A DNA stretch of 61,595 nt from Solidesulfovibrio fructosivorans JJ] (GTDB taxonomy: Bacteria > Desulfobacterota > Desulfovibrionia > Desulfovibrionales > Desulfovibrionaceae): NCBI RefSeq assembly GCF_000179555.1, contig NZ_AECZ01000022.1, forward strand, positions 1-61,595, read 5' to 3'. A program made the position numbers and the translations under genes. Below the pieces are notes generated by a model. The model saw only the letters and a list, made by a program, of their open reading frames with translations, was not told the DNA's origin and ran no database searches. This document shows positions 4,755 to 20,735 of this stretch, piece by piece. Position 1 is the first letter of the stretch; each line of letters starts with the position of its first letter.

Positions 4755-4830
4755 ATGCCTCCGGCGGCCAGGGGGAAACTTTTTGAAAAAAGTTTCCCCC
4801 TGGACCCCCTTCAAAAACTTTCACAAGGGA
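4755..4830 (+). repeat. Palindromic intergenic repeat with conserved tail (copy 2), 3' of gpmA
   Basis: The palindrome has 17-base arms (4768-4784 and 4787-4803). It is followed by the tail CCCCTTCAAAAACTTTCACA and AAGGG, in which CCCTT and AAGGG could pair. Bases 4755-4804 are an exact inverted copy of 1-50. The element starts four bases after the gpmA stop and ends about 35 bases before a separate canonical terminator. Confidence 0.85.
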
Positions 4831-7755: not shown

Positions 7756-8133
7756 CTACTTGTTCTTGTATTCCTTGCTCTTGGACTGGTAGAGTTCCTC
7801 GATGTAGTCGGCCTGGATTTTGAGGTCCTCGGCCTTGTTGACGAGATCGCCCACCTTCTCGTCAAGGGCGCGCAACTCGTCCGTGGTCGCGCCAGCCGCC
7901 TTGCGGGCCATACGCTCGGTTTCGGCGGCATTGACCTTGTCGATGGCGTCGCGATAGGCGTGCTCGGCCTTGCGCAGCTCCCGGTGCAACGTCTCGGGCA
8001 TCATGGCCTCGTAATCCTGGGCCACGCAGACCGCCGGACGCAACACGCCGGGCAGGACAGCGGAGAACAGCATCGTGCAACAAAGGACGGCAACGCGAAG
8101 GAACCGTCCCGCCGAGGAAAGGTGACTGGCCAT
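7756..8133 (-). CDS. Small exported coiled-coil protein, unknown function
   Basis: About 125 residues. The N-terminal signal-like segment covers about residues 10-37 (VAVLCCTMLFSAVLPGVL). The mature part is almost entirely charged helix, with heptad-like stretches such as LHRELRKAEHAYRDAIDKVN and DEKVGDLVNKAEDLKIQADY, so a coiled coil is likely. The ATG at 8133 is preferred because GAGG sits six bases before it; a GTG at 8145 is the alternative. I do not recognise the family. Confidence 0.7.
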   Translation of the reverse strand: MASHLSSAGRFLRVAVLCCTMLFSAVLPGVLRPAVCVAQDYEAMMPETLHRELRKAEHAYRDAIDKVNAAETERMARKAAGATTDELRALDEKVGDLVNKAEDLKIQADYIEELYQSKSKEYKNK

Positions 8134-8262
8134 GGCATGCCTCACGGATGATAATATGGTCCCGGACCCAACGAACGCGGGCCGCCCGGAACGTTCTTGT
8201 TGTAGGCGTCCCTATCCAAAAAAACAACCGCTTGCGTTCCGTTTCCCGCACCCCGCGCGGCA

Positions 8263-8292
8263 TTGACCCGCCTGCCGGAAGCGGGGTACACC
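8263..8292 (+). promoter_or_regulatory. Possible sigma-70 promoter for gatB
   Basis: TTGACC (8263-8268) and TACACC (8287-8292) are separated by 18 bases, about 60 bases upstream of the gatB ATG. Both boxes are imperfect. Confidence 0.3.
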
Positions 8293-8350
8293 CCCGACCG
8301 AAATTTCGTGGCGCGATCCGGCGGGACCGCGCCGTGTCAAGGAGCGTTTC

Positions 8351-9781
8351 ATGGCCAGGTACGAGACGGTCATCGGCGTCGAGGTGCACGCTCAGCTGAA
8401 AACAGAGAGCAAGATTTTTTGCGGTTGCTCGACCCGCTTCGGCGACGACCCCAACGAAAACGTCTGCCCCGTATGCTCCGGCATGCCGGGCGTGTTGCCG
8501 GTGCTCAACGCCAAGGTCGTGGAATTCGCCGCCAAGATGGGCCTGGCCACGGACTGCACGGTCAATCCCGTCTCGGTCTTCGCCCGCAAGAACTACTTCT
8601 ATCCCGACCTGCCAAAGGGCTACCAGATCTCCCAGTTCGAGCAGCCCATCTGCGAACACGGCCACATCGACGTGGTCGTCGACGGCAAGACCCGCCGCAT
8701 CGGCATCACCCGCATCCATATGGAAGAGGACGCCGGCAAGAACATCCACTCCGCGGCCGACAACCTGAGCTATGTGGACCTGAACCGCTCCTGTGTGCCG
8801 CTGCTCGAGATCGTCTCCGAGCCCGACATGCGCAGCCCCGAGGAGGTCGTGGCCTACCTCAAGGCGCTGCGCGCCATCCTGGTCTACCTCGACATCTGCG
8901 ACGGCAACATGGAGGAAGGCTCGTTTCGCTGCGACGCCAACGTGAGCCTGCGCCCGGTTGGCCAGGAGGCCTTCGGCACCCGCGCGGAGCTGAAGAACTT
9001 AAACAGCTTCCGCCACGTGCAAAAGGCCATCGAATACGAGGTGGAACGCCAGGGCGACATCCTCGACGACGGCGGCGTGGTGGTGCAGGAAACAAGGCTC
9101 TACGACGCCGCGAAAAACAGCACCGCCTCCATGCGCGGCAAGGAAGAGGCCAACGACTACCGCTACTTCCCGGACCCGGACCTCGTTCCCCTGCATCTCG
9201 ACAGGGACACCATCGCCCGTTGGGGCACGGAACTGCCGGAACTGCCGGCCGCGCGCCGGGAACGCTTCGCCACGGCTTTCGGGCTGTCCGACTACGACGC
9301 CGACGTGCTTACGGCCGAGCGCGATATGGCCGACTACTTCGAGGCCGCCGTCATGGCCGGAGCCGACCCCAAAAAGGCCGCCAACTGGGTGCAGACGGAG
9401 CTTTTGCGCGAATGCCACCAGTCCGGCGCCACTCCCGGGACGTGCAAGCTCTCTCCCGAACGCCTGGCCGGGCTGTTGCGGCTTATCGACGAGGGCGTCA
9501 TTTCCGGCAAGATCGCCAAGCAGATTTTCCCCGAGCTTTTCGCCAGCGGCGACGACCCGGCCGACTACGTGCGCGACAAGGGCCTCGTCCAGATCTCCGA
9601 CACCTCCGCCCTGGAGACGGCCGTGGACACGGTCCTCGCCGCCAACCCGGCCGAGGTGGATGCCTACCGCGGCGGCAAGACCAAGCTCATGGGATTTTTC
9701 GTCGGCCAGGTCATGAAGGCCACCAAAGGGCAGGCCAACCCCGGACTGGTCAACGAGCTTTTACGCAAAAAGCTGGGGTAG
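8351..9781 (+). CDS. gatB: Aspartyl/glutamyl-tRNA(Asn/Gln) amidotransferase subunit B
   Basis: Subunit B of GatCAB, which amidates mischarged Glu-tRNA(Gln) or Asp-tRNA(Asn). The 476-residue length is typical. The N-terminal [13 protein letters not shown] signature is present, as is the zinc-site cysteine pattern [19 protein letters not shown] (about residues 24-42). [15 protein letters not shown] and the C-terminal YqeY-like tRNA-binding region are also visible. AAGGAGC precedes the ATG. gatA and gatC are not in the window. Confidence 0.97.
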
Positions 9782-9795
9782 CTTCCGCCGCCCCC

Positions 9796-9810
9796 GGGGG
9801 ATCGTCCCCC
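9796..9810 (+). terminator. Short hairpin after gatB
   Basis: GGGGGA/TCCCCC arms around TCG lie 15 bases after the gatB stop. No T-run follows. It is a weak terminator or attenuator candidate between gatB and mtnA. Confidence 0.35.
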
Positions 9811-9870
9811 ACATCTCCTCGCGAGAGGCATTAACCCCTTTTGTCGCATCATGCAGACGGATGGTAGCCA

Positions 9871-10914
9871 ATGACCGACCACATCGCCTTTTCCCCGGAC
9901 AGGCACGCCCTGCTCCTGCTCGACCAGCGTTTCCTGCCCGACCGCGAGGAATCCTTCGTGTGCCGCAACACCGCCGACACCATCTACGCCTTGCAGACCA
10001 TGGTGGTGCGCGGCGCGCCGGCCATCGGCGTCACGGCCGCCTACGGCTGCTACCTGGCCGCCCGTGAAGCGTGCGAGGCCGGCGGGGGCTGGAAGGAAAA
10101 GCTGGAGGGGCTGCTTACCGAGCTGGAAAGCGCCCGGCCCACGGCCGTCAACCTGCGCTGGGGCGTCGAACGCATGCGGCAAAAGTGGCGGGAACTCGGC
10201 GATATTTCCCTCGAGGCGCTCCTGTCGGAATGGCTGGGCCTGGCCGAGACCATGCAGGCCGAGGACATCGAGATCAACAAGGCCATGGGCAAAAACGGCG
10301 CGGCCTTGATCGACGACGGCGACACCGTCATGACCCACTGCAACGCCGGGGCCCTGGCCACGGCCGGCTACGGCACCGCCCTCGGCGTCATCCGGGCCGC
10401 CTTCGAGCAGGGCAAGCGCATCAAGGTCATCGCCAACGAGACGCGGCCCTTTCTCCAGGGCGCGCGCCTGACCGCCTACGAGCTGGCCAAGGAAGGCATC
10501 CCGGTCACCGTCGCCTGCGACAACGCCGTGGGCCATCTCATGAAAAAGGGCATGGTCCAGAAGGTGGTGGTCGGCGCGGACCGCATCGCCGCCAACGGCG
10601 ACGCGGCCAACAAGATTGGCACCTACACCGTGGCCCTGGCCGCCAAGGCCCACGGCGTGCCCTTCTACGTCGCCGCCCCGGCCTCGACCTTCGACCTGAC
10701 GCTCGCCTCGGGCGAACTGATCCCCATCGAGAACCGCACCCCCCGCGAGGTCACCCACGTGGGCGAGCACCGCATCACCCCGGAGGGCGTCCCGGTCTAC
10801 AATTTCGCCTTCGACGTCACCCCGGCCGAACTCATCGCCGGCATCATCACCGAAAAGGGCGTGCTCACCGCGCCCTACACCGACGCCATCCGTGCCGCCA
10901 TCGGCGGGAAATAA
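9871..10914 (+). CDS. mtnA: S-methyl-5-thioribose-1-phosphate isomerase
   Basis: Aldose-ketose isomerase of the methionine salvage family (eIF2B-alpha-like fold). The 347 residues include [15 protein letters not shown] near residue 48, [19 protein letters not shown] with the catalytic cysteine, and [20 protein letters not shown] with the catalytic aspartate. No other methylthioadenosine salvage genes are adjacent. The next gene is thi4, 39 bases downstream. MtnA homologues in other bacteria also act on 5-deoxyribose-1-phosphate from 5'-deoxyadenosine, so that role is a fair alternative in an anaerobe rich in radical SAM enzymes. Confidence 0.93.
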
Positions 10915-10953
10915 CCCAACCGCAACCGAAACCGCCTGCTGAAGGAAGTCTTC

Positions 10954-11745
10954 ATGCCTCTTGACGAACGCATCATCACGGAAGCCATTGTCGACGGGTA
11001 TTTCGCCAAGTTCAAATCCAGCCTCGAACTCGATGTCGCCATCGTCGGCGGCGGCCCCTCGGGCCTTACCGCCGCCCGGCTCCTGGCCACGGAAGGCTTC
11101 AACGTCGCCCTGTTCGAACGCAAGCTGTCGCTCGGCGGCGGCATGTGGGGCGGCGGCATGACCTACAACGTCATCGTGGTGCAGGAGGAAAGCGCCCATC
11201 TGCTCACCGACGTCGGCATCCCGGTTGCCCGCTACAAGGACAACTACTTCACCGCCGACGCCGTGGCCGCCACCACCACGCTGGCTTCGGCCGCCTGTCT
11301 GGCCGGGGTCAAGGTGTTCAACTGCATGAGCGTCGAGGACGTGGTGCTGCGCGAGGTGAACGGCATCAAGCGCGTTACCGGCATCGTCATCAACTCCTCG
11401 CCGGTGGAAATGGCCGGGCTGCACGTGGACCCGGTGGTGCTCGGCAGCAAGTTCCTCATCGAGGCCACGGGGCATGCCACGGAAGTGCTGCACACCCTGG
11501 TGCGCAAAAACGACGTGAAGCTCAACACCCCTTCCGGCGGCATCGAGGGCGAGCAGTCCATGTGGGCCGACGTGGCCGAGACCAACACCGTGAAAAACAC
11601 CCGGGAGATCTTCCCAGGCCTGTACGTTGCCGGCATGGCCGCCAATGCCAGCTTCGGCTCCTACCGCATGGGGCCGATCTTCGGCGGCATGTTGCTCTCC
11701 GGCGAAAAAGTCGCGGCGGACATCGCCGCCAAGCTGCGGGGATAG
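10954..11745 (+). CDS. thi4: THI4-family thiazole synthase, His-type (sulfide-dependent)
   Basis: Makes adenosine-diphospho-5-beta-ethyl-4-methylthiazole-2-carboxylate, the thiazole precursor of thiamine, from NAD, glycine and a sulfur source. The 263 residues have an N-terminal dinucleotide-binding motif ([17 protein letters not shown], 28-44), the GGGMWGGGM loop (61-69) and the C-terminal [20 protein letters not shown]. At the position of the suicidal cysteine of yeast THI4 this protein has H157 (AGLHVDP). Methanocaldococcus THI4 also has histidine there and uses free sulfide catalytically. That fits a sulfide-rich anaerobe. It follows mtnA closely. Confidence 0.93.
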
Positions 11746-11773: not shown

Positions 11774-11840
11774 CCAGGGGGAACTTTTTGGAAAAAGTTC
11801 CCCCCTGGCCTCCCCTCAAAAACTTTTCCAAGGGAAAAAA
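11774..11840 (+). repeat. Palindromic intergenic repeat with conserved tail (copy 3), 3' of thi4
   Basis: CCAGGGGGAACTTTTT (11774-11789) pairs with 11792-11808, with one extra C in the second arm. The tail CCCCTCAAAAACTTTTCCAA plus GGG follows. It starts about 28 bases after the thi4 stop and runs directly into the 49-base dispersed element. Confidence 0.8.
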
Positions 11841-11889
11841 CGTATTCTTCAACTATGCGCCGCGTGCGGTCGCTCCGCCCCCAGCCGGC
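11841..11889. repeat. 49-bp dispersed intergenic element, copy B
   Basis: Begins CGTATTCTTCAACTATGCGC and matches 5092-5140 over 49 bases with about seven mismatches. It lies between thi4 and the LuxR-type gene. Its function is unknown. Confidence 0.7.
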
Positions 11890-11987
11890 ATAAGGCCTCG
11901 ATCGCCCCTTGCCGTGCAAAATTTTCCTTATTCGGATCGTTGTGATTCGGGGAAACGCCGGCTAGGCCGGCATCGCGAGGCGTCGTC

Positions 11988-12764
11988 ATGTCCCACGCCA
12001 ATCCCCCAACGGCGTTGCCGCATGAAAACCCGTTAAGCGGAGCGGATGCCCTCCTCCTTCTCGAACGCATTCAAAACTGCCTGGACTGCCGGTCGCGCCA
12101 AGCCTTTGCCCATCTTTTCCCCAAGCTCCGCTCCCTGTTGCCCTTCGACCACGCCCTGGCCGTGATCGCCCGTCTGGAAGACCAGACGGCCCTGGCCATC
12201 GACTGCTGCAACATCAGTTTTCCCGAACAGTGGCTGCGGGCCTACACGGCCGCGGACGCCTTCGCCGGCGACGCCATCGTGCGCCAAGCCCTGTCCGGAC
12301 CTGCCCCCTTGCACTGGGCCGAAACCACGCCGCGCCTGCCCCGGCCCAACGCCTTGTCGCTGTGCCGCGATTTTCGCATGCGCCAGGGCTGGGTCGCCGC
12401 GTCGGCGCCGCTTTTTGCCGCGCGAGAGCGCGCCCTTTTCTGCTTCGCCGGGGAGGTGGGCCGGCACGACCGGCGAAGCGCGGCCATCCTGGGGCATCTC
12501 CTGCCCCACCTCCACCTGGCGCTTAGCCAAACCCTCCGCGCCTCCGTGCCGGACAGGGAACCGATCGCCCTTTCCCGCCGGGAACGGGAAGTGCTCGACT
12601 GGCTCAAGGAAGGCAAAAGCTCCTGGGACATCGCCATGGTGCTCGGCATACGGGAGCGAACGGTCCGTTTCCACGTCGCCAACCTCATGCGCAAGCTCGG
12701 GGCGGTCAACCGGGCGCAAACCGTGGCTCTGGCCCTGCGGCGCGGCCTGATCGGGCTGGACTGA
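11988..12764 (+). CDS. LuxR-type regulator with acyl-homoserine-lactone-binding-like domain
   Basis: A 258-residue transcription regulator. The N-terminal half aligns by eye with the autoinducer-binding domain of TraR/LuxR. The pocket residues W, Y, D, W and G appear as W82, Y86, D95, W110 and G134, while the proline that normally follows the Asp is Ala96. The C-terminal LuxR helix-turn-helix covers about 194-255, with LSRREREVLDWL and ERTVRFHVANLMRKL. No luxI-type synthase is present, so it would be a solo receptor. The gene lies 112 bases upstream of an O-methyltransferase gene, and a long perfect inverted repeat lies between them. Binding of an actual lactone is inference. Confidence 0.82.
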   Translation: MSHANPPTALPHENPLSGADALLLLERIQNCLDCRSRQAFAHLFPKLRSLLPFDHALAVIARLEDQTALAIDCCNISFPEQWLRAYTAADAFAGDAIVRQALSGPAPLHWAETTPRLPRPNALSLCRDFRMRQGWVAASAPLFAARERALFCFAGEVGRHDRRSAAILGHLLPHLHLALSQTLRASVPDREPIALSRREREVLDWLKEGKSSWDIAMVLGIRERTVRFHVANLMRKLGAVNRAQTVALALRRGLIGLD

Positions 12765-12785
12765 CCCCTGGCGGTTCCGACAGGT

Positions 12786-12831
12786 GCGCGGACCGGATCG
12801 GTGGGGCATACTGGGCCGATCCGGTCCGCGC
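12786..12831. promoter_or_regulatory. Perfect 16-bp inverted repeat between LuxR gene and methyltransferase
   Basis: The arms GCGCGGACCGGATCGG (12786-12801) and its exact complement (12816-12831) enclose 14 bases. No T-run follows, which argues against a simple terminator. The repeat sits 46 bases before the methyltransferase ATG. It could be an operator for the adjacent LuxR-type protein or a leader hairpin. Confidence 0.6.
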
Positions 12832-12876
12832 CTCGCGCCGGACCAAAACGATCGCGCATCTCCAGGAGGGCTTCCC

Positions 12877-13896
12877 ATGCATGCCTCGAACACGGATTTT
12901 CCGACCATGGACGACCGTTTTATCTGGGACATCTGGCTGTCGAGCGTCCAGCTTCCCACCGTGCTGGCAGCGGACGAACTGGGCATCTTCGACCTGCTGG
13001 GCCGGCAACCGGCCACGGCGGATGCACTGGCCCGGGAACTGGGCCTCAACGCCCAGGCCCTGGTCGGCGTCCTGCCGCTGCTGGTCGGCCTGGGCCTGCT
13101 GACGCACCATCTGGGCCGCTTCGGTCTCACCGAGGCGGGTCGGCTCTATCTGCGCCATGACGGCCCATTCTACTGGGGAGAAGCCCTTGGGGTCATGCGC
13201 ACCCCGGTGGTCGCGCTCCTGTGCGACGCCCTGCGCGACCCGACCGAACGCCGGCATTACCAAATGGCCCAGGACTGGACCGAAGGCCGCATCGACAAGG
13301 ACGCCGCGACCGCCGTGGCCCGGCTCATGCACGCCCAGTCGCGGCCGGCGGCCCTGGGACTGGCCGCCACCGGGGCCTTTGCCGGGGTGACCCGGTTGCT
13401 GGATGTCGGCGGCGGCTCGGGATGTTTTTCCCTGGCTCTGGCCAAACGCCATCCCACGATGCGATGCACCGTGATGGAACTGCCTGGCATGTGCGAGGTG
13501 GTTGCCGGATACGTGAACGAGGCCGGCTTCGGCCGGCAGGTCGCCAGCCAGGCCGTGGACATGTTCGCGGAAGCCTGGCCGCGCGGCCATGACGCCATCC
13601 TGCTCTCCAACATCCTCCACGACTGGGACCCGGCGACCAATGCCCAACTCCTGATCGAGGCGCTGCGTGCCCTGCCGGCGGGAGGCCGCCTGTTCGTGCA
13701 CGAGATGCTGCTCGACGACGACGGCGCCGGCCCCCTGGCCGCGGCCGCCTTTTCGGTCATGCTGCTTTTGGCCACGGGCGGACGGCAGTATTCGGCCAGG
13801 GAGCTCGCCGCCATGCTGACGGAGGCTGGATTCACGGACGTGGGCGTGTCCCCGGCCTACGGGTACTACGCCCTGATCACGGCGCGAAAACCCTGA
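12877..13896 (+). CDS. SAM-dependent O-methyltransferase (Methyltransf_2 / hydroxyneurosporene-type)
   Basis: A 339-residue small-molecule O-methyltransferase. The N-terminal winged-helix dimerisation domain (about 15-95) contains LGIFDLLGRQPATADALARE. The catalytic domain has motif I LLDVGGGSGCFSLALAK (about 172-188) and the family signature SNILHDWDP (about 241-249). The ATG at 12877 is chosen because AGGAGG lies seven bases before it and the dimerisation domain begins there. The substrate is unknown. Its place behind a solo LuxR regulator suggests a regulated secondary-metabolite or signal-modifying role, which is inference. Confidence 0.85.
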   Translation: MHASNTDFPTMDDRFIWDIWLSSVQLPTVLAADELGIFDLLGRQPATADALARELGLNAQALVGVLPLLVGLGLLTHHLGRFGLTEAGRLYLRHDGPFYWGEALGVMRTPVVALLCDALRDPTERRHYQMAQDWTEGRIDKDAATAVARLMHAQSRPAALGLAATGAFAGVTRLLDVGGGSGCFSLALAKRHPTMRCTVMELPGMCEVVAGYVNEAGFGRQVASQAVDMFAEAWPRGHDAILLSNILHDWDPATNAQLLIEALRALPAGGRLFVHEMLLDDDGAGPLAAAAFSVMLLLATGGRQYSARELAAMLTEAGFTDVGVSPAYGYYALITARKP

Positions 13897-13938
13897 GCGG
13901 CGGCGGGCCGGTCCAGGGCAGTATTCGCACGTTTTCCC

Positions 13939-13968
13939 TTGACACATCTGCCCGTGGCGTGCTTTTCT
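13939..13968 (+). promoter_or_regulatory. Possible sigma-70 promoter for der
   Basis: A perfect TTGACA (13939-13944) is followed after 18 bases by a weak TTTTCT. It lies about 85 bases upstream of the der ATG in a locally T-rich stretch. Confidence 0.35.
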
Positions 13969-14051
13969 AGTTATTTCTTGTTGGCAAGTACCCTCACCCC
14001 GGCTCCCCGCCAGCCGACCCGCTTTCCGTCCCCAAGGAGACCCGATACCCC

Positions 14052-15404: not shown

Positions 15405-15562
15405 GCGAGAGGGGGACCCTTTTTGAAAAAAGGGTCCCCCTCTCGCGCTCTCCCCTCCCAAAAACTTTCAATAGTTACAGGCGGTAACCGCCTACCCTTT
15501 GAAGAGTCTTTGGAAGGGGGGTCCGGGGGGAGAACCTTTCTGCAAGAAAGGTTTCCCCCCGG
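15405..15562 (+). repeat. Composite palindromic repeat (two palindromes), 3' of der
   Basis: The first palindrome (15405-15446) has perfect 20-base arms. It is followed by CTCTCCCCTCCCAAAAACTT and a small hairpin (GGCGGT/ACCGCC). The second palindrome (15523-15562) begins CCGGGGGG and ends CCCCCCGG. The whole unit is colinear with the reverse complement of 51196-51345. There it sits between two converging genes, and each palindrome follows one of them. Confidence 0.8.
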
Positions 15563-15581
15563 TTCGCATTTCGCCTGTCAT

Positions 15582-15628
15582 CGGCACTCGATGCCGGCGT
15601 CGCAGAACTTGCCCACGCCGTATTCGCG
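15582..15628. repeat. 47-bp direct repeat, left copy (displaced 3' end of the ARMT1-like gene)
   Basis: Identical to 17969-18015 at 46 of 47 positions. Read on the - strand it encodes RRREYGVGKFCDAGIECR and a TGA stop. That is the C terminus of the protein ending at 17965, with one Asp-to-Glu change, after which similarity stops. A terminator-like palindrome lies immediately downstream on that strand, as expected for an original gene end. Confidence 0.9.
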
Positions 15629-15658
15629 ACGGCGCCGAGAACCAAGAGGCCCCTTGCG

Positions 15659-16351
15659 CTACCATCGTATCGGCTTGCCAAAGCGATCGAGGTAGTGAAG
15701 TCCTTTTTTCCCTTCCTGGGCAATAATGGTGTCGACGATCCGCGGCACAACCTCCTCAATAGTGAATTTTGCCTCAGGGCCGCCCATATCCGTTTGCACC
15801 CAGCCCGGGGCGATGAGAAGCAGGGTCCGGTCGTTGGCGCGACGCGCCGCGAAGCTGCGCATCAACATATTGAGCGCCGCCTTGCTGGCCCGGTATACTT
15901 CGAATTCTCCCGTCTCGTTATTCGCGACGCTCCCCTGTCCCGAAGACATCACGCCTATGGTTCCTTTGGGACGGACATTGTCTGCAAGTTGTTCGACCAC
16001 CCGCATCGTGGAAAGCGCGTTTGTCACCATCACACGCACAAATGCATCCGTGGAAACTTCTCCAATGGTTTCATAACGGGGATTCGTGACACCCGCGTTC
16101 ACGAAGAGAAGATCAAAAGTCCTTCCCCGCAGGCGTTCCTTGCAATCTTCGATTTGCTCCGGGCTCGTGATATCGAGATATTCGATCTCGAGCCGCCCGG
16201 GACAGCTCTTGGCCAGGTCGTGCAACTTTCCGGGTTTTCCCTGGCGAACCGTTCCAACGACATTCCAGCCACGTTGTAAAAATTCCTGCGCCAAGGCCAA
16301 CCCAAGCCCGCGTGAAGCGCCGACAATCAAGGCCGCGCGGTTTATTCCCAT
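15659..16351 (-). CDS. Short-chain dehydrogenase/reductase (SDR)
   Basis: A 230-residue classical-type SDR oxidoreductase. The nucleotide-binding GASRGLG motif is at 11-17, NAG at about 85-87, and a catalytic Ser at 137/138 with Y153 and K157 (YRASK). The start at 16351 has GGGAGG upstream; an in-frame ATG at 16375 would overlap the upstream aldolase gene. The substrate is unknown. It is co-transcribed with the aldolase gene, 16 bases away. Base composition differs from neighbouring core genes, consistent with transfer. Confidence 0.88.
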   Translation of the reverse strand: MGINRAALIVGASRGLGLALAQEFLQRGWNVVGTVRQGKPGKLHDLAKSCPGRLEIEYLDITSPEQIEDCKERLRGRTFDLLFVNAGVTNPRYETIGEVSTDAFVRVMVTNALSTMRVVEQLADNVRPKGTIGVMSSGQGSVANNETGEFEVYRASKAALNMLMRSFAARRANDRTLLLIAPGWVQTDMGGPEAKFTIEEVVPRIVDTIIAQEGKKGLHYLDRFGKPIRW

Positions 16352-16367
16352 CGTAGCAGCCTCCCGA

Positions 16368-17078
16368 TTATTCATTGTCACACCACTTGCGCACCAGAAA
16401 CTTCCAGGGACGGTGCATGACAGACCGATGAAGATCGTCCGCCAGGAAGGCTTCTTGCGCGCAGAGGTACGTTGGATTTCCCAGCTGCATGGCCACAGGC
16501 TGCGCTTGTGCATTGAGGGTCGCATAGATTGCCCGGAAAACAGCCTCCTTGACCGAAGCGCCAACAACTGTGGCCCCATGCCCACGCATGAGTACCAAGG
16601 CGCTTTTGTCCAGACAGCGGGCCAGGGAGAATCCAAGCTCCTGGCTTGTTATCAACATGTCTGTCATTCCATTATCCTGTCGGATATCAAACACAGGCAC
16701 CCCGTACGCCAAGAAGCCGCACATATGATAAAGAGGCTGGAGTTGCGTTTTTGAAACACCAAAAGGTATCAGCGCGGGAGCGTGCGTATGCACGATTGCG
16801 TTGACATCGCTCCGGGCTTTGTAAATTTCGCCATGGAGGAATCGTTCGATCGATGGATTGGCGCAATCCTTCGCTATCGGATTGCTTTCCAGATCGAGCT
16901 CCATAAAATTGCCCGCATCTCCCGGCTCCGCTGCATTGTCACGGACCAGATAGTAACGATCCCCATGTCGCGGATGTCGCGCCGAGACATGCCCGAAGCC
17001 GTCCAGGATGCCTTCGCCGGCCAATATCCGGGTCGCGAAGCATAACTCCTCGAAAATCCGCGTGGTTTCCGTATCCAT
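16368..17078 (-). CDS. Class II aldolase/adducin family protein
   Basis: A 236-residue member of the zinc-dependent class II aldolase/adducin family, which includes fuculose-phosphate aldolase, ribulose-phosphate 4-epimerase and related decarboxylases. The metal ligands are visible as H97-x-H99 (HTHAPALIPFG) and H167 (RGHG). A glutamate lies in the PSIERFLHGEIY stretch (E78 or E84). It is preceded by a strong AAGGAGGAGG ribosome binding site, followed by the SDR gene, and faced by an AraC-type regulator. The reaction cannot be named from sequence alone. Codon use is AT-richer than the flanks. Confidence 0.87.
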   Translation of the reverse strand: MDTETTRIFEELCFATRILAGEGILDGFGHVSARHPRHGDRYYLVRDNAAEPGDAGNFMELDLESNPIAKDCANPSIERFLHGEIYKARSDVNAIVHTHAPALIPFGVSKTQLQPLYHMCGFLAYGVPVFDIRQDNGMTDMLITSQELGFSLARCLDKSALVLMRGHGATVVGASVKEAVFRAIYATLNAQAQPVAMQLGNPTYLCAQEAFLADDLHRSVMHRPWKFLVRKWCDNE

Positions 17079-17169
17079 TTTTCGCCTCCTCCTTTGTTGC
17101 CACGCATAAACAAAGAACGTAGAGGCACGGTATCGACATCACGCCAAATTATGTCGCCAATGGGCCACA

Positions 17170-17904
17170 ATGGACAGAGACCAACCGTTCACCAAGTATC
17201 TTCATGACGCGCACAAGCGTGTCGAAGTGCCGCTGCACAGCCACACAAACGGTCAGTTAAACTATATCGACAAAGGAACGATGCACCTCGTCTCTCCCGA
17301 GGCGCACTGGGTGGTCCCTTGGCAAAGAATCGTCTGGATTCCGCCCGACCAGCCCCACTCCGTAGCATGCGAGATGCTTTCAGGAAGCTGGAAAGCCATG
17401 ATCCCAAGATATTATGCGCAATTTCTTCCGAAGGAGATCTCGGTCCTGCGTACAAGTCCGCTCTTGCATGCGGCTCTTGAAGCCCTGCCGGTAAACGGCA
17501 AAACACTTCCCCCGGCCAGGCTCGAGCCGCTCATCGAGATCATCAAACAAGAACTTATGGATGCGGAGAACGAAGGGTTCGGCGTGACTTTTCCAAAATC
17601 GGATCAGTTGCGGAGGGTCACCGACATTTTGTTGAAACAACCTGAAGATACAAGAACAATTGATGCGTGGGCAAAAATTGCCGGGATGTCGAGACGCAGC
17701 TTTACACGACACTTTCTTGCGGAAACCGGCCGCTCATTCGGCGAGTGGAAGAGGGATGTCGTGCTCGGCAAGGCCTTGGGCCTGTTGGCCGAAGGAAGAA
17801 GCGTCGCGGAAATAGCGGACCAGCTGGGATACGCCTATCCAAGCGCCTTCATAGCGGCTTTTCGACGGAAATACGGCGCATCACCGCTCAGATTCAAAAA
17901 GTGA
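17170..17904 (+). CDS. AraC-family transcriptional regulator
   Basis: A 244-residue regulator. The N-terminal cupin-like AraC ligand-binding domain covers about 15-100, with VPLHSHTNGQLNYIDKG and WIPPDQPHSV. The C-terminal double helix-turn-helix covers about 140-243, with WAKIAGMSRRSFTRHFLAET and ADQLGYAYPSAFIAAFRRKY. It is divergent from the aldolase-SDR pair across about 90 bases, so it probably controls them in response to a small ligand. No clear ribosome binding site precedes the ATG at 17170, and the true start or a leaderless mRNA is open. Confidence 0.9.
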   Translation: MDRDQPFTKYLHDAHKRVEVPLHSHTNGQLNYIDKGTMHLVSPEAHWVVPWQRIVWIPPDQPHSVACEMLSGSWKAMIPRYYAQFLPKEISVLRTSPLLHAALEALPVNGKTLPPARLEPLIEIIKQELMDAENEGFGVTFPKSDQLRRVTDILLKQPEDTRTIDAWAKIAGMSRRSFTRHFLAETGRSFGEWKRDVVLGKALGLLAEGRSVAEIADQLGYAYPSAFIAAFRRKYGASPLRFKK

Positions 17905-17964
17905 CAGCCTGCGCGAAACCGCCGGCAAGCGCCGCCCCGCTGGCCCGCACAGGGCAATAGCGCC

Positions 17965-19737
17965 TTAGCGGCAATCGATGCCGGCGTCGCAGAACTTGCC
18001 CACGCCGTATTCGCGGCGTCGCAGGAATTTTTCCGGGTCCGGGCCGATGATCTGCATCTCGGGCTGGCGGGCCTGCATGGACAGCGCAATGCGCATCTCC
18101 TTGGTGCAGCCCGTAGAGAAGGTGGCGTCCTTGCCGGCCCAGGCCGGGGGCACCTTGCGCCCGAGAAGCTCGAAGCTCTTTTCGATATCGAAGTGGGTCT
18201 GGAAGCGCCACACGTCGATCAGGCCGCTGCGTTGCACCTTTTCCCACATGAACATCAGGTCGTCGGCGTCCATGCCCTCTTCAAAGTGTTCGGCCGGATT
18301 GATGATATAGGTGTCGGCGAGCTTTCCCCGCAGATGGGCCACAAAGGCGGTCACAAGCTCGATGGCCGTCTTTGTCTGCCCCGGGATGGAGCCGATGACG
18401 GCGCTGTAGAACATGACGGTTCTGCCGGCCGCCTTGGCCGCGCGCATGGCCGTGATGATTTCCTCGGCCTTGGCCGTGATCTCGGCTTCGGTCAGGGAGC
18501 GGGCCCCGGGAGCGCGGGGCTTGAAATCCAGGCGCAGGCCGCATTCCCCGTCGCCGTAAAAGGACACCACGTCGCGGGTGAAAAGGTGGCTCGTCTCGAT
18601 GAGCCGCTTGTGGCTGAGCGACCCCTTGGCCAGGACCAGGTCCGCCTCCTTCCAGGCCCGGGCGAAGGTGACCGAGACGCGGTAGAGGTTGAGCCGTTCG
18701 CGAGTGCCGTCGGAAATGACCGTAAGCGGGTTTTCGCGCATGATTTGGAGCAGCGCGTTCTTGCCCAGGCGCGGATCGCTGACGAAACGGGCCCCGGACA
18801 GGGCCGCGTCCAGGATAGGATCGCCCTCGGGGTCCCAGAACGTGGGCGCGTCGTAGTAGAATCCGTCCTTGACGGCCACGATGACCCGGTGGCCCAGGCG
18901 CAGGAGCGTGCGCACGGCCAGCAGGTCGAAAAGCACCCCGCCGGCGCTGTCCGCCAAAAAAAGAATCTTGAGCCCGCCGCGCCGGGGATCGAGCAGAGCC
19001 TCGAGCTTGGCGAAATCGGCCGGGAAGCGGGCCAGGGCGGCGTCCAGTTCGCCCCGGCCGGGAAACGCGCCCTCGCCCGTCCAGATGGCGGGCATGGCGC
19101 CCAGGGCCAAAAGCCGCCGCAGCTCCAGCATGTCCAGGGCGAAACGCAGGTCGGGCAGCGCCCGGCAGCCGGGCAGCTCGTCCGGGCAGGCGTAGAGCAT
19201 GGCCGAAAACGCCTCGCTCTGGATGAAGGAAAAGGCCCGGCGGTTGAAGGCCCGCTTGCGCTCCCGGTGCGGGTCGTCGAGCCCGGACTGGGTCAAAAGG
19301 ATGGTGCACAGCCGCTTGGCCAGGCGCGAGGGGATCATGGTCGGCTTGACCAGGGCCTGCCGGTACTTGAGCCGGCACAAGGTGCGGATCTTGGTCCGGG
19401 TGTAGGCGTCGGGCACGTAGTCGTCGATAAGCCCGTCGATGCGGGCCAGCCGGCCGTCGTATTCGGCCACGACCATGGGGTCGGCCCGGGCGCTGAAAAG
19501 ATGGGCGAACATGGCGTCCGAGCACGGCACGTAGATCTCCTCGGGGGAAAGCGCCACCATGAAGCGCAGTTGCTCGGGCGAGGCGTTCTTTTCCGGAGTG
19601 ATGGAATGCTCCAGATTGTTTTCGGTCATGAAGTGCAAGAGCCAGGCGTCGAGAACGGGATCGAGGCCGTAACGCGGGGCCTGCCCCGGTTCCAGGGACG
19701 CGACCGGAAGGGCCGGTTCGGAGGGATGTTCCGTCAT
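17965..19737 (-). CDS. ARMT1/DUF89-like metal-dependent phosphatase domain protein
   Basis: A 590-residue protein. The region around 255-400 resembles the DUF89/ARMT1 damage-control phosphatase domain: ILFLADSAGGVLFDLLAVRTLL (257-278), VAVKDG (288-292) and DLVLAKGSLSHKRL (366-379). The family's usual D-N-A-G-E is D-S-A-G-G here, so activity may be altered. The roughly 250-residue N-terminal part and the Cys-containing tail (KFCDAGIDC) are not recognised. The ATG at 19737 overlaps the nadK stop (ATGA), indicating translational coupling. The last 16-18 codons are duplicated at 15582-15628, marking a recombination point at the gene's 3' end. Confidence 0.72.
   Translation of the reverse strand: MTEHPSEPALPVASLEPGQAPRYGLDPVLDAWLLHFMTENNLEHSITPEKNASPEQLRFMVALSPEEIYVPCSDAMFAHLFSARADPMVVAEYDGRLARIDGLIDDYVPDAYTRTKIRTLCRLKYRQALVKPTMIPSRLAKRLCTILLTQSGLDDPHRERKRAFNRRAFSFIQSEAFSAMLYACPDELPGCRALPDLRFALDMLELRRLLALGAMPAIWTGEGAFPGRGELDAALARFPADFAKLEALLDPRRGGLKILFLADSAGGVLFDLLAVRTLLRLGHRVIVAVKDGFYYDAPTFWDPEGDPILDAALSGARFVSDPRLGKNALLQIMRENPLTVISDGTRERLNLYRVSVTFARAWKEADLVLAKGSLSHKRLIETSHLFTRDVVSFYGDGECGLRLDFKPRAPGARSLTEAEITAKAEEIITAMRAAKAAGRTVMFYSAVIGSIPGQTKTAIELVTAFVAHLRGKLADTYIINPAEHFEEGMDADDLMFMWEKVQRSGLIDVWRFQTHFDIEKSFELLGRKVPPAWAGKDATFSTGCTKEMRIALSMQARQPEMQIIGPDPEKFLRRREYGVGKFCDAGIDCR
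17969..18015. repeat. 47-bp direct repeat, right copy (3' end of the ARMT1-like gene)
   Basis: Forms the last codons of the ARMT1-like gene (through GIDC and Arg) and matches 15582-15628 at 46 of 47 bases. The single mismatch changes Asp (GAT) to Glu (GAG); the differing stop codons fall just outside the matched block. Confidence 0.9.
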
Positions 19738-20597
19738 GGGCAGCTGATGAATCCTTTGAGCCGCAACCTGGCGAAATAACTGTCGTCCTTTCGCTTGGCC
19801 AGAATCAGGAACCGGGAGGACTTGCGCACTTCCACCACATCGTTGTCGTCGAGGGGGAAAAGCTCCTGGCCGTCGCAGGTCAGGTACATGTTGGTTTCCG
19901 GCGCGGACAGGGCCAGGCGCACCGGGGACTCGGCCGGCACGATCACCGGCTTGAAGTCGCTTAAAAACGGACAGATGGGCACCACGCACAACACGTCGAG
20001 ACCGGGATAGATGAGCGGCCCGCCGGCCGAAACGCAGTAGGCCGTGGAGCCGGTGGGGGTCGAGATGACCACGCCGTCGGCCCGAAGCGTGCAGATGTCC
20101 ACGTCGTCGAGGCTCACGTTGAAGGCGGCGAGCCTGGCCATGGCCCCGCGGCTGACCACCGCGTCGTTGAGCGACGTGGTTTCGTACACGCGCTCCCCGC
20201 CGCGGATCACGGACACGTCGATCATGATGCGCCGGGCCGGGGTGAAGCCGTTTTCGAGAATGTCGGCCAGGACCTCCCGCCAGTCATCGAGCCCGGCCGA
20301 GGTCATGAACCCCACCCGGCCGAGATTGATGCCGAAAAAGGGCACGCCGTCGGCCACGGTCTGCCGGGCGGCCGAAAGCATGGTGCCGTCGCCGCCGAGG
20401 ATCAGCGCCAGTTGCGGCCTTGCGGCCAGCACCGCCCCGGGCGGCACCACGGCGCTCCTGGCTTCGGGAAGGTTTTCCCTGATCAGCACGGTCACGCCGT
20501 GGGTGGCCAGCCAGTCGGCCACGGTCCAGGCCGTCTCCCTGGCCAGTGTGTGATCGGCTTTGTAAATAATGAGAATGGTTTTGATGTCGCGGCCCAT
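19734..20597 (-). CDS. nadK: NAD kinase
   Basis: Phosphorylates NAD to NADP. The 287 residues include the catalytic GGDGTML motif near residue 83, the substrate-binding SLNDAVV, and the glycine-rich TPTGSTAY loop. The ATG at 20597 gives the family-typical start (IKTILIIYK) with GGAG upstream; earlier in-frame codons are not needed. The stop overlaps the start of the ARMT1-like gene by four bases, so the two are co-translated. Confidence 0.95.
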   Translation of the reverse strand: MGRDIKTILIIYKADHTLARETAWTVADWLATHGVTVLIRENLPEARSAVVPPGAVLAARPQLALILGGDGTMLSAARQTVADGVPFFGINLGRVGFMTSAGLDDWREVLADILENGFTPARRIMIDVSVIRGGERVYETTSLNDAVVSRGAMARLAAFNVSLDDVDICTLRADGVVISTPTGSTAYCVSAGGPLIYPGLDVLCVVPICPFLSDFKPVIVPAESPVRLALSAPETNMYLTCDGQELFPLDDNDVVEVRKSSRFLILAKRKDDSYFARLRLKGFISCP

Positions 20598-20648
20598 GCC
20601 CCGTCTCCGTTTCGGGTTATATCCCCTTGCGGTCCGGGGAGGAAGCCA

Positions 20649-20677
20649 CTTATAAGGCAAAGGCGGGCATGACACAA
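20649..20677 (-). promoter_or_regulatory. Probable sigma-70 promoter for nadK
   Basis: On the - strand TTGTGT (20677-20672) and TATAAG (20654-20649) are separated by 17 bases. The predicted transcript start lies about 45 bases before the nadK ATG. Confidence 0.55.
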
Positions 20678-20735
20678 GAAAGACGCGGCCGAGAGGATTT
20701 GGTGACAGGCGATGGATTTTTTTCTCGGTTGCCAC

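Follow-up and report, generated by a model that had tools for sequence, protein, structure and literature searches.

The window analysed here is a stretch of 61,595 nucleotides from Solidesulfovibrio fructosivorans JJ (positions 1 to 61,595 of contig NZ_AECZ01000022.1, C22 below). It contains a gene for an ARMT1-like domain protein whose 3' end is interrupted by a small cassette of three genes, bounded on both sides by a copy of that gene end. The features of the locus, in window coordinates, are as follows.

15503–15565, no strand: palindromic terminator-like element, putatively the original downstream element of the ARMT1-like gene and a member of a dispersed family (matches in the own genome; follows the intact gene in G004, the closest genome of the same genus).
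15579–15635, minus strand: left copy, the original 3' end of the target gene, now an orphan, ...GVGKFCDAGIECR-TGA (54-bp repeat plus stop codon; Glu codon, TGA and downstream sequence as in the empty site of G004).
15659–16369, minus strand: cargo gene for a short-chain dehydrogenase/reductase (SDR, PF00106; best NCBIfam match PRK08177.1, below its cut-off).
16368–17078, minus strand: cargo gene for a class II aldolase/adducin-family protein (PF00596, Pfam match).
17079–17169, no strand: divergent gap of 91 bp between the regulator and the aldolase-SDR pair (from coordinates; putative promoter region).
17170–17904, plus strand: cargo gene for an AraC-family regulator (PF12833 and PF02311, Pfam matches), divergent from the aldolase gene.
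17965–18022, minus strand: right copy, the replacement 3' end, ...GVGKFCDAGIDCR-TAA, which continues the ARMT1-like gene in frame (sequence, repeat and comparison with G004).
17965–19737, minus strand: target gene for the ARMT1-like domain protein (PF01937, Pfam match), adjoining the NAD kinase gene at 19734–20735.

The cassette is enclosed by a direct repeat of 54 bp (15582–15635 and 17969–18022), whose copies are identical at 51 of 54 positions and have 2,333 bp with the three genes between them. The 47-bp repeat with one mismatch given in the preliminary description is real and sits within this larger repeat, and its account of the two copies stands. The right copy is the coding end of the ARMT1-like gene, the minus-strand frame of which ends in GIDCR-TAA and is restored by this copy. 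The left copy encodes the same C-terminal peptide with Asp changed to Glu and another stop codon (GIECR-TGA), lacks a gene body, and stands as an orphan on the far side of the insert; its region matches just the final 20 residues of the ARMT1-like protein. The palindrome lies directly 3' of the left copy, as had been stated. With 40 of 296 candidates scored, its part of the query matched at least 39 other places in the own genome, and it is a member of a dispersed family there.

As a control, we collected direct-repeat pairs of 35–400 bp with at least 80% identity and a separation of 0.3–20 kb, in the window and in a 400-kb sample (about 9% of the genome). There were four pairs in the window and 15 in the sample, and those flagged at the end of an open reading frame (ORF) numbered one and three, respectively. 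Two of the three flagged sample pairs, one per 200-kb stretch, were inspected and are palindromes on doubtful ORFs, e.g., the pair on contig C3 (58359 and 61132), which is a palindrome across a doubtful ORF overlapped by a larger one; the third uses the same ORF as one of these. Further repeat pairs of the window are located near 4757 and 11762.

An unoccupied version of the locus, which the preliminary description had proposed to look for in relatives, is present in G004. Its sequence aligns on both sides of the cassette (L071 1–3042 with window 21009–17969, and L071 2989–4591 with window 15635–14032), and the two alignments overlap by exactly 54 bp. The gene of G004 ends in GIECR-TGA, with the palindrome directly 3' of the intact gene. 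Because G004 has the Glu codon, the TGA stop and the downstream palindrome of the left copy, this sequence comparison identifies the left copy as the original gene end and the right copy as the replacement brought by the insert. The original end must be the one that adjoins the original downstream sequence, so that geometry is a stronger argument here than variant sites. A chance repeat is ruled out by the 51/54 identity, by the exact overlap in the G004 alignment, and by the lack of a comparable plausible gene-end pair in the 400-kb sample. As judged from the letters of the two genomes, these comparisons show a 2.3-kb cassette set within the last 54 bp of the ARMT1-like gene, with the original end and palindrome beyond it and a near-identical new end in frame. 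In G004, the ARMT1-like gene itself (L071 near 1273–1425) appears near its N-terminus as two pieces in different frames, a possible frameshift.

Variant sites within the copies add some detail. The right copy has GAT (Asp) followed by TAA; several further species of the genus also have Asp here. It sides with three of five other species at gene position 1770 and with all five at position 1772, in each case against G004, which is no more than suggestive. Positions 15629 in the left copy and 18019 in the right copy each differ from G004, and the exchange point is no further narrowed. When the gene body is compared with six genus members in 15 bins of 120 bp, every bin is nearest to G004, so no long tract upstream comes from another of these species. 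A donor as near as G004 would look alike in these bins, and donor-type sequence from such a source may extend into the anchoring gene.

Among the genomes compared, the cassette was seen in this one only. Rather than all relatives carrying the three genes, an outcome that would have spoken against a recent insertion, 8 of the 13 other genus members have der directly downstream of the ARMT1-like gene (tblastn gap of 27–272 bp), and no cassette DNA turned up in the genomes of 78 other relatives, including these 13 (three candidates per genome scored). In this search 50 of the 78 matched, at the gene end only, bar one stray 39-base match in G004. That second G004 site (3321716–3321754, 87%) was rejected as a candidate; it falls within a larger reading frame, at a great distance from the ARMT1-like gene, and has the appearance of a chance match. 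G006 and G012 offer just 221 and 64 bp of contig downstream of the gene. In G005 and G009 (L076 and L077), no der was seen downstream in the 7.4 kb covered, and the ARMT1-like gene adjoins a block corresponding to window 7756–11736.

Composition, which had been recommended as a check, sets the insert apart from its flanks. The cassette, described earlier as AT-richer, has a guanine-plus-cytosine (GC) fraction of 0.555 versus 0.665 and 0.645 in the flanks, and GC at third codon positions is 0.60–0.63 in the three cargo genes versus 0.87–0.92 in four neighbours (der, the ARMT1-like gene, an IF-2B-family gene, and a Thi4-family gene). The origin of the cargo was searched with the aldolase and the SDR as queries. 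Aldolase homologues occur in 2 of 348 genomes of the order at E ≤ 1e-20, the one besides the own at 33% identity; the nearest relatives in the genome collection, at 60% identity, are in two gammaproteobacterial assemblies, and 130 plasmid records match. SDR homologues occur in 5 of 395 genomes of the phylum at E ≤ 1e-30 (the four besides the own at 32–38%), and the SDR is 62.7% identical to a protein in a Rhizobium replicon. As a set, the three genes were not found at the five aldolase loci compared or in two annotated SDR neighbourhoods; a third SDR record carries no annotation. The cassette has no match in phages, the cargo none in the defence library, and the three genes contain no phage-type Pfam match. 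Given its divergently oriented regulator, the cargo may form an inducible catabolic unit. The aldolase and SDR genes, both on the minus strand, now head toward the old terminator-like palindrome of the target gene.

Other cargo at the same codons, a further check proposed in the preliminary description, was observed in G039, a genome of another genus, which has an antitoxin/PIN cassette there. In G039 the gene end is present twice, with 94 of 98 bases in common. Contig C130 has one copy close to its end, and the other belongs to the complete gene on C58. The encoded peptide is FSDAVLG in each case, the copies differing in synonymous bases and in their stop codons. The cargo comprises a gene for a MazE-type antitoxin and a further reading frame; in the latter, the C58 part matches a PIN domain and the 43 residues on C130 have no family match. 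The stop codon of the orphan overlaps that of a convergent neighbour by two bases, an arrangement that points to the orphan as the native end. No empty-site relative was found for G039, and its neighbour genes gave no matches beside the target gene in other loci. At E ≤ 1e-6, 1 of 288 genomes of the family has the antitoxin. In both the window and G039, sequence homology ends at the stop codon.

The C-terminal codon pattern is present in 176/288 genomes of the family and 219/348 genomes of the order. It does not behave as a motif scattered through genomes and unrelated to gene ends: among the 219 order genomes with the pattern, it is doubled only in the own genome, G039, and G145. The last was rejected as a third case, as two contig ends overlap there by 263 bp at 97%, which marks it as an artefact of assembly or strain. 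The pattern is absent from the other 129 of the 348 genomes, and orphan ends may therefore be undercounted. Degraded second gene ends downstream in relatives were sought in 60 locus rows, several per genome and most reaching about 1.5 kb downstream, so that a copy as distant as the window's own would be missed; just 12–33-base matches were found, the longest being 33 bases at 76% and others 28–29 bases at 86%.

In G001, a different gene pair lies between the ARMT1-like gene and der (2,197 bp), with a single gene end. The pair (L073 5507–7453) matches HEC-01A/B in the defence library and is a candidate defence pair of an AAA ATPase and a DUF4276-like protein, the DUF4276 match of the second protein being just under the cut-off. 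It was discarded as a third case of gene-end replacement, since no second gene end was found; its position between the same two genes indicates that the spot also receives other insertions. A second variable spot was seen in the window at 11774–14032, with a LuxR-type regulator containing an autoinducer-binding domain and an O-methyltransferase. At that spot G004 has 871 bp instead, with a frame that by eye resembles a hexapeptide-type acetyltransferase.

The geometry of an integrative element at the 3' end of a gene, as originally proposed, is supported by the empty site in G004 and the other cargo in G039. We consider an insertion like that of e14 at icd the probable explanation, i.e., one crossover within short gene-end homology, with the recombinase acting in trans or since lost. 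The incoming DNA would have been circular, or equivalent to a circle, and would have carried one copy of the gene end; a single crossover inside the gene-end segment would then have integrated it. The likeliest enzyme would be a site-specific recombinase of the tyrosine type. Such an enzyme would have acted in trans or been encoded by DNA that is now gone, because the three genes take up almost the whole cassette; none of them is a recombinase by Pfam, in line with the absence of an integrase noted before. Both cassettes are nearly all coding and leave little room for a decayed integrase. Elsewhere in the own genome there are 22 tyrosine-recombinase matches, 20 of them over the cut-off, and G039 has four, none on its short contigs C130 and C58. 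The step from a gene-end crossover to a site-specific enzyme in trans is one that we infer. The conserved C-terminal codons would thus act as an address, and the replacement end would keep the host gene intact.

Several observations weigh against this explanation. No tyrosine recombinase (PF00589) was found on C22, in a search that left out the neighbourhoods of the gene in other genomes, and no large serine recombinase (PF07508) in the genome. Four codon-pattern scans of viral contigs for the gene end returned nothing. Among phage and plasmid records, none spans 80% of a 180-base gene end: two phage records match 12–14% of it, and 19 plasmid records match, the 10 listed covering at most 22%. 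A search for a dyad that could form an attachment core gave arms of 6 bp only, equalled in 210 of 1000 shuffles and hence not beyond chance. The cases number two only, their repeats are of unequal length (54 versus 98 bp), and the G039 cassette spans two contigs with 25 shared end bases. A further genome with a true second gene end, expected from an integrase-bearing element, is missing among the 219 pattern-holding order genomes, the 129 without the pattern being uninformative. Variant sites at which other species are preferred over G004 also occur upstream (e.g., 1319 and 1671), so that positions 1770 and 1772 prove little alone. Finally, direct repeats at the base are not rare in small variable segments, being reported for 10–18% of them in PMC2884548.

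Among the rival explanations, host RecA could have joined foreign DNA carrying a gene-end copy, such as a circle from a similarly built relative, to the gene by single-crossover homologous recombination over 54–98 bp, with no dedicated recombinase. The unequal repeat lengths, the divergence of the copies by about 4–6%, and the lack of a recognised recombinase in the cassette, on its contig and on the two contigs of G039 would all fit such a process. However, 54 bp is short for RecA, the first joining to cargo of a bare gene end stopping at the stop codon is left unexplained, and the same codons were targeted in two genera; we regard this route as unlikely.

Homology-assisted illegitimate recombination is less likely still. 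A linear donor with an ARMT1-like gene and downstream cargo would have paired at the gene, its far end being joined by chance 54 bp before the stop codon with duplication of the end. The process is described in PMC2884548, and the HEC-01A/B-like pair of G001 with its single gene end is what another chance junction would give. On the other hand, the target gene upstream of its end shows no tract nearer to another of the six genus members compared, the search of 78 relatives gave no cassette DNA, and two junctions within the last 54–98 bp, both with an intact replacement end, are not to be expected by chance.

That the cassette is old and the empty site of G004 arose by deletion between the two repeats is very improbable. 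Between-repeat deletion is a source of small variable segments according to PMC2884548, and the copies now differ at 3 of 54 positions; nevertheless, cassette DNA was seen in none of the 13 other genus members, eight of which have der directly downstream, the composition is foreign, and the origin of the repeat would remain to be explained. Transposition with target-site duplication would account for a flanking direct repeat around foreign cargo, but is hardly credible, as 54 bp with three mismatches far exceeds usual target duplications and no transposase domain is present in the three cargo genes.

Returning to the crossover at the gene end with an enzyme supplied in trans or since lost, a broader generalization can be formulated, in which the terminal codons of a conserved gene would be a shared docking address for tiny recombinase-free cassettes, the replacement end serving as the attachment site and the enzyme being provided in trans. 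We offer it as a speculative and rather doubtful extension. If true, it would amount to an integron-like economy of cargo exchange that uses the C-terminus of a conserved gene in place of attC sites. Independently of this generalization, what is of interest is that two unrelated compact cassettes, with no recombinase recognised, occupy the same codons of the same gene in two genera, each rebuilding the gene end. They offer a chance to test how cargo units of very small size get to fixed chromosomal addresses with no enzyme of their own, and orphan gene ends are suggested as a search handle for such insertions.

Integration at gene ends is well known for transfer RNA (tRNA) genes and for a small number of protein genes, the element as a rule encoding an integrase, and tycheposons and similar islands target tRNA genes. 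We found no earlier report of the arrangement described here in the open-licence literature, and DUF89 and ARMT1 are unmentioned in the best matches for the gene family combined with integration. The tRNA-targeting islands and satellites resemble our case in gene-end duplication, cargo exchange at one address, and possible helper dependence, whereas the target here is a protein gene and the cargo is without a phage-type Pfam match. Tycheposons are named as proposed satellites in PMC11389934. The integrase-less cassette arrays (CALINs) treated in the same source likewise contain compact, recombinase-free cargo that could be moved in trans, but the repeated site here consists of the terminal codons of the gene. 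The small variable segments of PMC2884548 are also short foreign segments at one point in relatives, some with basal direct repeats; the present case differs from those described there in the exact replacement of the gene end and the reuse of the same codons in two genera. Alternative pairing in pneumococcus transformation, as presented in PMC3784515, yields mainly large tandem duplications and is less similar.

The closest parallel is the insertion of e14 at icd in E. coli, where, as described in PMC6379469, the element supplies the 3' codons of the gene, a duplicated pseudo-end remains, and the protein changes between Asp and Glu. All of these have counterparts in the window: integration in the 3' end of a protein gene, a replacement end, a pseudo-end, and an Asp/Glu change. 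At the same time, e14 is a defective prophage of 15 kb with a duplicated end of 163 bp, whereas the cassette reported here comprises 2.3 kb with a 54-bp repeat, an ARMT1-like target, and no recognised recombinase. Since the anatomy resembles that of e14 but no integrase was recognised, we count the case as a variant of integration of the e14/icd kind.

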